Both the position numbers and the translations under genes were made by a program. Below, one piece after another: positions 26,792 to 29,769 of a stretch of 64,000 bases of DNA. How positions within the stretch are numbered: position 1 is the stretch's first letter; each line of letters starts with the position of its first letter. This stretch comes from Gammaproteobacteria bacterium (GTDB lineage Bacteria > Pseudomonadota > Gammaproteobacteria > Pseudomonadales > Pseudomonadaceae): contig JAMCWB010000004.1 of assembly GCA_023475025.1 (NCBI GenBank), positions 124,001-188,000 of the forward strand. The letters run 5' to 3'. A model generated the notes under the pieces. The model was not told the origin of the DNA. It made no database searches and saw nothing but the letters and a program-made list of their open reading frames with translations.

Positions 26792-27039
26792 CCGTTCTCT
26801 ATATCCTGGTACCCATTGCCGTTTTGCTGGTTATCGTGGCGGTGCTCATCTTCAACTGGGCGGTGAACAGTGGACAGTATGACGACCTGGACGGGCCCGC
26901 CCACAGCATTCTGTTCGACGATGAAGATCCCGCCCACCTTGCCGCCCAGGCGGGCGAAGACGTCGTCGACAACGAGCCGCCCAAGACTACGGAGCAAAAG
27001 CCCGCGGTCAAGCCCCGATCGGACTCGGGTGACGCATGA
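26788..27039 (+). CDS. ccoS: cbb3 oxidase maturation protein CcoS
   Basis: An 83-residue protein with one membrane span (about 4-26) and the conserved [25 protein letters not shown]. It is required for cofactor insertion into the cbb3 oxidase. The acidic and lysine-rich tail beyond residue 55 is variable. It overlaps its neighbours by four bases at both ends. Confidence 0.95.
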
Positions 27040-27797
27040 GCGCCGAACTGCTGCCCTTGCTACTGACCGCCCTGGCCCTGGGCCTGCTCGGAGGCGGCCA
27101 CTGTATCGGCATGTGTGGCGGCCTGATGGGCGCAATGACTCTGGCCATTCCGGTTGAGCAGCGCAAGGGCTGGGTACTTTGGCGGGTATTGCTCGGCTAT
27201 AACTTCGGGCGCATTGCCAGTTATGCCCTGGCCGGCGCCATTCTTGGCGGCCTTGGCTGGCTGGCCCAGGACCTTGGACTAGGACGCGCATTGCGCACTC
27301 TGGCAGGTCTGATGATGATCGCCATGGGTTTGTATCTGGCCAACTGGTGGGCCGGACTCACCTATATCGAACGTCTGGGCAAGGGCTTGTGGCGGCATAT
27401 CCAGCCACTGGCCAGCCGCATGCTGCCGATCACCAGCGCACCACGCGCACTGGCCGTTGGCGCACTCTGGGGCTGGTTACCCTGCGGCCTGGTCTACAGC
27501 ACCCTGATCTGGGCCAGCAGTCAGGGGCATGCCGGTCAATCCGCCTTGTTGATGCTGGCATTCGGGCTTGGCACCCTGCCTACCCTGCTGGCCACCGGCG
27601 TTGCTGCCGAGCGCCTGCTGAAACTGCTACGTTTGCGTAAGGTACGCATCAGCGCCGCCTTGCTGGTCATTGCCTTTGGTATCTGGACCCTGCCCGGCCC
27701 GCATAAAGCCTGGCTGATGGGGCACAGCCACAATAGTGAGGCAACGCCTGCAGTTGACGCACATCAACACCCTATGGATAGCGCGCCCTTACACTGA
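27036..27797 (+). CDS. SafE/TauE-family membrane protein of the cco cluster
   Basis: A 253-residue integral membrane protein with about six spans. It starts [20 protein letters not shown] and carries GGHCIGMCGGLMGA, a His/Cys-rich motif common in this family, and a GALWGWLPCGLVYSTL repeat later. The C-terminus is histidine-rich (GHSHNSEATPAVDAHQHP). Members are regularly encoded after ccoS in pseudomonads. A role in metal handling during oxidase assembly is suggested by the Cys and His residues and by location, but the function is not established. Confidence 0.8.
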   Translation: MSAELLPLLLTALALGLLGGGHCIGMCGGLMGAMTLAIPVEQRKGWVLWRVLLGYNFGRIASYALAGAILGGLGWLAQDLGLGRALRTLAGLMMIAMGLYLANWWAGLTYIERLGKGLWRHIQPLASRMLPITSAPRALAVGALWGWLPCGLVYSTLIWASSQGHAGQSALLMLAFGLGTLPTLLATGVAAERLLKLLRLRKVRISAALLVIAFGIWTLPGPHKAWLMGHSHNSEATPAVDAHQHPMDSAPLH

Positions 27798-27829
27798 ACC
27801 TCGTTTTCAGTTTCAGTGAGGGAATGCCG

Positions 27830-28912
27830 ATGCACGCCGCCCAGCCCGTGCCTGCCACCATCGGCCAACCCGGGGTTGGCCCGAGTGTATTGCAACCGCA
27901 GGTTTTACACCCCGCTGACCACCTTGCCATCCGCCGTGCACTGCGGGCCAGCCGGCTGGCCCGACGCCCTCTGGCATTGACGCTCCAGCTGCCCTTCTGT
28001 GCCAATGCCTGTCACTTTTGCACGCGCTGCCGGGTCATTGCCAAGGATCGCAGCAAGGCGCATGACTACATGCGCCTGCTGGGCAGGGAAATGGAAACTC
28101 TGAGTCGACAGCTTGATCGCCGTCAGCAAGTCGTGCAGCTGCACCTGGGCGGCGGCACCACGACCTTTGCCGGGCATCGGGCACTGGTACAACTGATGCA
28201 GAACCTGCAGCGATACTTTGACCTGAGTGACCTGCCTGCTATCGATGCCAGTGTTGCCATCGACCCGCGCGAAGTGGATTGGGCCACGCTGGACCTGTTG
28301 CGCGGGCTCGGCTTCAACCGGCTGAGCATCATGCAGCCCAGCCTTGACCCGACTGTGCAGCAGGCCATCAATCGTCTACAGGGTGAGCAGCAACTGGCTG
28401 AGTGCCTGACTGCAGCACGCACATTGCGTTTTCACAGTATCGGCGTCGAGGTCATGACCGGCCTGCCCGAGCAGAGCCTGGCAAGCTTTCGTCAGACACT
28501 TGAAACCCTGGTTGCCTGGCAACCAGAGCGTATTCGGGTCACCCGCTACTACCACCAACCGCAACACTATCCCTTGCAGCGACGAATCAATCGCAACCAC
28601 CTGCCAGCTTCCGGCGAGATCAAGGCAGCCAGCGTCTGGCTGGAGCATTACCTGTGCACAGCCGGCTACCGGCAGCTGCAAGCCGGGCTCTTCGTGCTGC
28701 CCCAGGATCCGCTGGCAATGGCGGCGGAGGATAATCAGCGGCAGGCCACAATCGAGGTCATCTCCAGCGTGCTTGACTACGACAGCCTGGGGCTTGGCCT
28801 GGGCGCAACCAGCCAGGTCAAGGGTCTGAACTGGCGTAACGCCCGGCAACTGGCTGACTGGCAGCAACGCATAGCCCGCGGACAATTTGCCGCCGAATAC
28901 CAATATCCCTGA
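27830..28912 (+). CDS. HemN-like radical SAM protein, divergent and short
   Basis: A 360-residue protein from the ATG at 27830, which is spaced correctly from GAGGGA. An ATG at 27824 is too close to it. It aligns with HemN, oxygen-independent coproporphyrinogen III oxidase, across the barrel: LPFCANACHFCTRCR (Cys57, 61, 64, 67), HLGGGTTTF, SVAIDPREVDW, VQQAINRLQGEQ and SIGVEVMTGLPEQS. It is about 100 residues shorter than HemN. The Tyr before the cysteines is absent. GGGTP is GGGTT, the Glu of EIDPR is Ala143, and the GVQDF block is MQPSL. The fourth Cys is one position later. SAM and cluster binding remain plausible, but haem synthesis activity is doubtful. In Pseudomonas aeruginosa the gene here is a normal hemN. 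Confidence 0.8.
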   Translation: MHAAQPVPATIGQPGVGPSVLQPQVLHPADHLAIRRALRASRLARRPLALTLQLPFCANACHFCTRCRVIAKDRSKAHDYMRLLGREMETLSRQLDRRQQVVQLHLGGGTTTFAGHRALVQLMQNLQRYFDLSDLPAIDASVAIDPREVDWATLDLLRGLGFNRLSIMQPSLDPTVQQAINRLQGEQQLAECLTAARTLRFHSIGVEVMTGLPEQSLASFRQTLETLVAWQPERIRVTRYYHQPQHYPLQRRINRNHLPASGEIKAASVWLEHYLCTAGYRQLQAGLFVLPQDPLAMAAEDNQRQATIEVISSVLDYDSLGLGLGATSQVKGLNWRNARQLADWQQRIARGQFAAEYQYP

Positions 28913-29037
28913 AGCATCGGCCCTGCTCAACTTTGGCCAGTCCATCAAGGCTGGCTATGCTGGTAGGCAGTAATGGCTAAAGTGGCCGCCATGTTGTAGG
29001 CTTTCACGAATAAAAGCCCGGAAGCTGGAAGCCGACC

Positions 29038-29769
29038 ATGAGTGATGCCCTGAAACTGCGCGCCCTACCTGAAGCGCACTGCAAAGACTGCAGTCTGGCA
29101 GCCATGTGCCTGCCCCTCTCCCTGCAGGATGAGGAACTGGACACCCTGGACAATATCGTCAAGCGCGGTCGACCACTGAAAAAAGGTGAAAACCTGTTCC
29201 GTCAGGGCGACCCCTTCAGCTCTATTTATGCCCTGCGCTCCGGTGCAATCAAGACCTTCAGCGTATCAGACAGCGGTGAGGAGCAAATTACCGGCTTTCA
29301 TCTGGCCAGCGAAATGATCGGCCTTTCCGGCATGGATGATGAACGCTACCCGGTGTCCGCAGTTGCACTTGAAACCACCTCAGTCTGTGAAATCCCCTTT
29401 GAGCGCCTTGACGACCTGACCGCTGCCGTACCCCAGCTGCGCAAACAGGTCATGCGCCTGATGAGCCGTGAAATCCGTGACGACCAGCAAATGATGCTGC
29501 TGCTATCGAAGAAAACCGCGGATGAGCGCATCGCTACGCTACTGATCAACCTCTCCGCACGCTTTCGTGCCCGTGGCTATTCCGCCACCGCCTTTCGCCT
29601 GGCCATGTCGCGTAATGAAATCGGCAACTACCTGGGGCTGGCGGTGGAAACGGTATCCCGTGTGTTTACCCGCTTTCAACAGCAGCAACTGATTGCTGCC
29701 GAAGGAAAGCAGATCGAAATTCTCGACCACGCCCAACTCTGCGCCCTGGCCGGTGGTCAATTTGATTAA
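29038..29769 (+). CDS. anr: Oxygen-sensing CRP/FNR-family regulator Anr
   Basis: A 243-residue regulator that activates microaerobic and anaerobic genes when its 4Fe-4S cluster is intact. N-terminal cysteines 15, 18 and 24 ([11 protein letters not shown]) and a further Cys near 113 (TSVCEIP) are the four cluster ligands. A cyclic-nucleotide-type beta roll follows. The C-terminal helix-turn-helix includes [19 protein letters not shown], and its E, S and R residues specify TTGAT half-sites. It sits just downstream of the cbb3 genes, which it is expected to regulate. Confidence 0.96.

Follow-up and report, generated by a model that had tools for sequence, protein, structure and literature searches.

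A shortened HemN relative beside anr in a few Halopseudomonas species, possibly an ancestral hemN turned to accessory use

Introduction

A hemN-like gene lies beside cbb3 oxidase genes and anr in the window, the whole stretch of 64,000 nucleotides analysed here, and its product is conspicuously short. The locus raises the question of whether this gene still encodes an oxygen-independent coproporphyrinogen oxidase and, if not, what its product may do and how it came to lie there. Annotation by best match and position could name the gene hemN and thereby misplace the anaerobic heme pathway; the full-length copy in these species lies elsewhere, beside a gene that we take to be moaA. A sequence-only reading of the window had proposed that the gene is not a working oxidase and may serve another radical SAM role tied to the cbb3 oxidase or to Anr. 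No paper on the short gene was found by titles and abstract openings in the openly licensed literature (CC0, CC BY and CC BY-SA; print beyond it may differ), and none there joined HemN with Halopseudomonas, HemN-like radical SAM proteins with cbb3, or coproporphyrinogen with pertucinogena.

Results

The short gene, its family and its distribution

The features of the locus are listed in Table 1. The gene was present where the sequence-only reading had placed it, but the start given there, 27830, is the second in-frame ATG. The neighbours were also as stated, with anr identified by model and the cco names being those we presume from sequence and gene order; no NCBIfam model reached its cut-off for the product that we take to be TauE.

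Table 1 Features of the short-gene locus in the window
Feature	Position	Strand	Remarks
tauE (TauE/SafE-like membrane protein), upstream neighbour	27036..27797	+	name presumed
Anr/FNR-box-like site TTGACGCACATCAA	27754..27767	+	within the 3' end of tauE, 70 bases ahead of the short gene's start codon
Short HemN-derived protein, 362 aa	27824..28912	+	radical-SAM barrel, without HemN C-terminal domain, without recognisable trip-wire
Cysteine loop CX3CX2CX2C (Cys59, Cys63, Cys66, Cys69)	27998..28030	+	only four Cys common to all five short proteins
GGGT stretch, residues 109-112, then private Thr113	28148..28159	+	the other four short proteins have Pro here
AIDPRE, residues 145-150, with Ala replacing HemN Glu145	28256..28273	+	alignment with 1olt
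MQPSL, residues 170-174, replacing HemN GVQDF; Gln172 to Pro	28331..28345	+	alignment with 1olt
anr (Fnr-family oxygen regulator)	29038..29769	+	NCBIfam Fnr model 325 bits, cut-off 228

By model scores, HemN was the nearest named family of the window protein, which obtained 202.9 bits with TIGR00538, under the curated cut-off of 324.95. This scoring also covered the short proteins of G029 (218.9 bits) and G019 (289.3 bits), both below the cut-off, while the full HemN of the window genome, found on another contig when the genome was searched, reached 582.1 bits. Scores with TIGR00539 (HemW; 74.6 bits, cut-off 205.4) and TIGR04419 (PsgB; 12.5 bits, cut-off 300) stayed below their cut-offs. The radical SAM domain PF04055 matched residues 57-228 with 47.0 bits, above its gathering score of 29.5, and the domain search gave no match to HemN_C (PF06969) in the window protein. 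Residues 42-351 aligned with residues 45-351 of E. coli HemN (1olt; E 7e-44), and the protein is about 100 residues shorter than HemN (362 against 457 aa), as had been claimed.

An AlphaFold2 model built from 51 sequences had a mean pLDDT of 75 and a pTM of 0.78, with pLDDT below 50 at residues 1-31, 68-70, 301-316, 332-337 and 358-362. Its best solved match was again 1olt (TM 0.80 by model length, rmsd 2.3). The fourth cysteine has no certain place in this model because of the low pLDDT at residues 68-70, and the case for it as a cluster ligand by geometry was left weak.

The short form was present in five of 37 genus genomes, namely the window genome (G000), G015 (92% identity to the window protein), G027 (71%), G029 (65%) and G019, H. 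yangmingensis (49%). A profile of the five proteins, run over 398 genomes of the family, gave at least 645.7 bits only in these five; the next best score was 435.3 bits, and the further rows among the matches listed had frames of at least 465 aa, as ordinary HemN. By this profile search with its best matches listed, the short form was not found in the other 393 genomes of the sample, although less similar short forms could rank below the best 80 of 559 loci.

Residues lost and kept

The short proteins were compared with 47 full-length HemN from the family loci, comprising 34 genus copies, 11 from other genera and 2 second copies. In E. coli numbering, Tyr56, His58 and Gln311 were conserved in 47/47 of these, Glu145 and Gln172 in 46/47, Cys71 in 45/47 and Phe310 in 40/47. 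Glu145, Gln172, Phe310 and Gln311 have roles in HemN. Tyr56, His58, Cys71, Phe310 and Gln311 are absent from all five short proteins, and Glu145 and Gln172 from four; G019 retains these last two. The window protein carries Thr, Ala, Pro and Glu at the positions of Tyr56, Glu145, Gln172 and Gln311, respectively. The missing Tyr before the cysteine motif, the Ala for Glu and the MQPSL at GVQDF that had been read from the sequence therefore held against E. coli HemN, and so did the fourth cysteine one residue later (CX3CX2CX2C against CX3CX2CXC in HemN). This cysteine lies one residue past HemN Cys71 in a loop of equal length, so that it arose by substitution, not by an insertion or deletion. The GGGTT stretch was also confirmed, but it is private to the window genome; G015 has SGGTP. 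His58, Phe310, Gln311, the C-terminal domain and any recognisable trip-wire are losses beyond those listed earlier.

The losses were unevenly spread along the protein. Among positions invariant in the 47 HemN, all five short proteins retained 43 of 56 in the barrel, 0 of 11 in the C-terminal domain and 1 of 8 at the N terminus in the trip-wire region. Also kept in all five were CX3CX2C (E. coli Cys62, Cys66 and Cys69), GGT and Arg184.

Two full-length proteins showed changes at some of the same positions. L057 (8039-9421, G005) is a full-length HemN with CX3CX2C lacking the fourth Cys, in which Glu145 is Ser, Gln172 is Pro and Cys71 is Arg; G005 has another HemN-length match. These losses arose independently of the short form and without truncation, and they are thus not special to it. 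L023 (1336-2769, G050) is an otherwise ordinary anr-linked HemN in which Cys71 alone has changed, to Arg.

The pattern bears on whether the short protein could still use SAM. PMC13266988 describes Tyr56 of HemN as stacking against the second SAM and as critical to catalysis; according to the same paper, in the methylase NocN, Arg171 forms a salt bridge with the carboxylate of the first SAM and Gly157 is a first-SAM contact. In the sequence alignment, Arg184 of HemN and the short form corresponds to NocN Arg171, and the Gly aligned with NocN Gly157 (Gly170) is Met in four of the five short proteins. At the first-SAM site, Arg184 and GGT are therefore kept, and Glu145, Gln172 and Gly170 are lost in four of five. 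One-SAM cleavage could thus be argued either way, with Arg184 and GGT speaking for it and the three losses against.

The main rival to our own reading follows from the retained residues: a re-tasked radical SAM enzyme, now without the porphyrinogen pocket or a second SAM, that would bind one SAM on its cluster and convert a different, smaller substrate. The conservation of CX3CX2C, GGT and Arg184 in all five, the universal losses of Tyr56, Phe310, Gln311 and Cys71, and the purifying selection described below would suit such an enzyme. However, four of five lack Glu145 and Gln172, which HemN and the genome's own HemW conserve, as well as the glycine at the NocN Gly157 position, and the neighbourhood points to no substrate because it is inherited. 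We consider this explanation somewhat unlikely. The other radical SAM role suggested by the sequence-only reading has the kept motifs in its favour and the partial loss of first-SAM residues against it, and thus stands as a possible role at most.

A further reading, which we regard as unlikely, is a SAM-free Fe-S protein. The moved fourth cysteine would complete an all-Cys [4Fe-4S] site (CX3CX2CX2C) and block the iron that SAM would bind; the protein would be an Anr-induced accessory sensitive to oxygen or redox state, with H. yangmingensis preserving a halfway stage.

Selection on the short gene

The dN/dS of the short gene was 0.11-0.25 (six pairs among the four close relatives). These ratios are rough, since every pair except G000-G015 has a dS above 1.4 and close to saturation. 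dN was lower than dS in each of the four pairs put to a Fisher test (p 8e-9 to 1e-51). The ratios of anr, tauE and the full hemN were lower than that of the short gene, and ccoS could equal it; the short gene stood at least twofold above most neighbours, though not above ccoS, ccoH and ccoI in every pair. dN was higher in residues 260-360. The short gene is constrained, though less than most neighbours, and with a dN/dS of 0.11-0.25 it is not debris; the conserved cysteines likewise speak against a pseudogene.

These rates leave some room for a decaying hemN remnant that heads for loss with no function left. Such decay would agree with the long stem (2.1 changes per column) that leads to the four close relatives, the elevated dN/dS and the faster C-terminal part, the private changes GGGTT and SGGTP, and the empty slot in 27/27 other genus loci examined. 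However, the frame is open in all five genes even though synonymous sites are near saturation in every pair but G000-G015, p did not exceed 8e-9 in the four tested pairs, and exactly four shared cysteines and the upstream site are retained throughout. Decay is accordingly quite unlikely in our estimation.

The slot between tauE and anr

The best 80 of 559 loci included 78 non-short ones; in 74 of these, almost all from Pseudomonas or Stutzerimonas, tauE and anr flanked an ordinary hemN. Counted from reference genes, between which genes without a reference may lie, the order tauE-hemN-anr was found in 75 of the 80 loci, one of them being the short gene of L106 (G019); one of the other five is the short gene of L105 (G015). 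In the other loci of the genus, tauE and anr were 63-110 bases apart with no gene between them in 27/27 examined, five further genus genomes lying outside this set. The place of the short gene beside the cbb3 genes and anr is thus inherited and provides no evidence for a role with either, so that the functional tie that the sequence-only reading drew from position was dropped: the ancestral hemN slot explains the adjacency.

Each of the five short loci had an Anr-box-like site with no more than one mismatch, placed between -70 and -79; in four of them it lay in the tauE coding sequence. Among anr-linked ordinary hemN genes, with start codons assigned mechanically, 56 of 74 had such a site within 250 bases upstream and 18 showed none; among 12 of these loci listed, the seven having one carried it at -73/-74. 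The G019 site matched exactly the one upstream of a Pseudomonas hemN (L118).

Several other observations concern Anr and its sites. Allowing no more than one mismatch, nine Anr/FNR-box-like sites lie in the window (1-64000), where shuffled sequence would lead one to expect 1.3. In H. yangmingensis, the anr frame (L007, 16-963) departs from Anr past about residue 210, near a contig end, which reflects either an interruption or an assembly edge. Each of the five short-gene genomes, and no other in the genus, has a second Anr-like regulator that is 57-62% identical to Anr (L094 9093-9824, L095 9389-10120, L096 2275-3006, L097 9041-9862 and L098 1494-2225). This regulator may be just a marker of the same lineage; the only other second Anr match in the genus at E 1e-60 was 43% identical, in G014.

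Phylogeny

The five short proteins formed one clade (100/99). In one tree this clade was separate and long-branched, nested among the HemN of other genera at 80/86, and the genus's own hemN formed a clade excluding the short proteins (95/99). The sequence-only reading had looked to a HemN tree for a decision; the nesting in the family HemN is weak, yet the altered residues differ from those of orthodox HemN. In AU tests that included 19 of the 78 non-short loci, three topologies were all retained at 5%: the short clade united with the hemN of the genus itself (p-AU 0.17), a recent duplication (p-AU 0.08) and union with the hemN of other genera (p 0.46). The group of other genera in these tests comprised 30 rows, with anr linkage seen for some but not all of them (L015 and L032 being examples of the exceptions). 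No rival origin was rejected, and the argument for inheritance is therefore carried by the slot and the upstream site, not by the tree. The RpoB tree, built without the outgroup row G060 and without the window genome, whose rpoB was found only in pieces, did not resolve the base of the genus, and the four short-bearing species used grouped at only 50/41. In the Anr and TauE trees alike, G019 sat on a long branch whose position was uncertain; the TauE tree retained it as the only short-bearing genome.

A separate observation concerns the two closest genomes. Positions 27150-29100 of the window, comprising most of tauE and the short gene, were 88-99% identical to L048 of G015, whereas the left flank was 64-82% and the right flank 81-86% identical; this segment was likely exchanged recently between the two lineages.

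A different origin, in which the moaA-linked hemN was duplicated late or a gene was acquired from beyond the genus and the newcomer was inserted between tauE and anr, would fit the recent-duplication topology kept at 5%, the 27 other genus loci without a gene and the apparent exchange of tauE and the short gene between G000 and G015. The insertion point would nevertheless have to coincide with the family's own hemN slot, the G019 site is the same as a Pseudomonas hemN site, and the genus's own hemN clade leaves the short proteins out. We judge this origin quite improbable.

Other heme genes of the short-form genomes

Besides its full HemN, the window genome encodes HemW (TIGR00539 396.8 bits, cut-off 205.4) and HemF, the latter being present in 37/37 genus genomes. 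Within this genome, HemN_C was confined to HemN and HemW; the missing tail is therefore not encoded separately, and that possibility was ruled out. A full second hemN was found in four of the five short-form genomes. In G027 (assembly rated 93% complete), the searches recovered the short form, HemW and HemF but not a full-length HemN, and redundancy accordingly covers four of the five.

A still active oxygen-independent coproporphyrinogen oxidase with unusual residues is very unlikely: HemN is the nearest named family and solved fold, the upstream site is like that of hemN and one tree nests the clade among family HemN, but the score lies below the HemN cut-off, the lid domain, Tyr56, Glu145, Gln172 and Gln311 are missing, and an ordinary HemN is present in the genome. 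The claim that the gene is not a working oxidase is thereby upheld, by the full HemN elsewhere and by what has been lost: the lid domain, the Tyr for the second SAM and residues that the HemW of this genome still has.

Discussion

The reading that we favour, to which we give an even chance, is that the short gene represents the anr-linked ancestral hemN of Pseudomonadaceae, made redundant and repurposed as a non-oxidase Fe-S accessory. The short gene probably does a different job at low oxygen. Coproporphyrinogen oxidation would rest, in a small number of Halopseudomonas species, with another hemN beside moaA, and the old anr-linked copy would have lost its C-terminal domain, trip-wire and Tyr56 while its fourth cysteine moved by one residue. 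Glu145 and Gln172 would have been lost later, with the barrel, the cysteine loop and the Anr-type site retained. This order, with truncation, Tyr56 loss and the cysteine shift first and Glu145 and Gln172 second, is suggested by the H. yangmingensis form, which looks like a halfway stage. Judging from the upstream site, Anr would drive the gene at low oxygen, and the cysteines suggest a protein that holds a [4Fe-4S] cluster, which the fourth cysteine may cap. On the repurposing reading, coproporphyrinogen oxidation is impossible with the trip-wire, the lid domain and the second-SAM Tyr all missing; the protein may instead work as an accessory, not a decarboxylating enzyme, in the handling of heme or Fe-S at low oxygen. 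It would thus resemble HemW in the type of role while belonging to a different family.

If a retained function holds, the ordinary slot hemN, the H. yangmingensis form and the four derived forms make up a series. They would then show a radical SAM enzyme in the course of abandoning its original reaction, with the intermediate and the old upstream site still present.

Comparison with known systems

PsgB (TIGR04419), going by the model name, is likewise a HemN relative that departed from radical SAM chemistry (a non-iron pseudo-SAM protein). Its pattern, going by the same name, is opposite, since the short form keeps the cysteines and loses SAM-site residues, and the score of 12.5 bits is far from the cut-off of 300. 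The class C radical SAM methylases (NocN, 9p2u) share the HemN-like barrel and, according to PMC13266988, the absence of a trip-wire and an Arg for the carboxylate of the first SAM; unlike the short form, NocN is described there as retaining the second-SAM Tyr and the C-terminal domain. The NocN match to the window protein spans residues 47-238 only.

HemN itself (TIGR00538; 1olt) has in common with the short form the barrel fold, CX3CX2C, GGT, Arg184, the slot between tauE and anr and the Anr-type site, and differs in possessing the HemN_C domain, the trip-wire and the residues lost from all or four of the five (203 bits for the window protein against a cut-off of 325). HemW (TIGR00539), a HemN-like heme chaperone, shares the HemN-like barrel and CX3CX2C, but the HemW of the window genome still has Tyr, His, Glu and Gln where the short form lost them and has HemN_C, and the short protein scores only 75 bits against a cut-off of 205. 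By analogy with HemW, a HemN relative can take on a handling role: PMC4500134 describes a HemN-like protein with a suggested function in heme trafficking, not biosynthesis.
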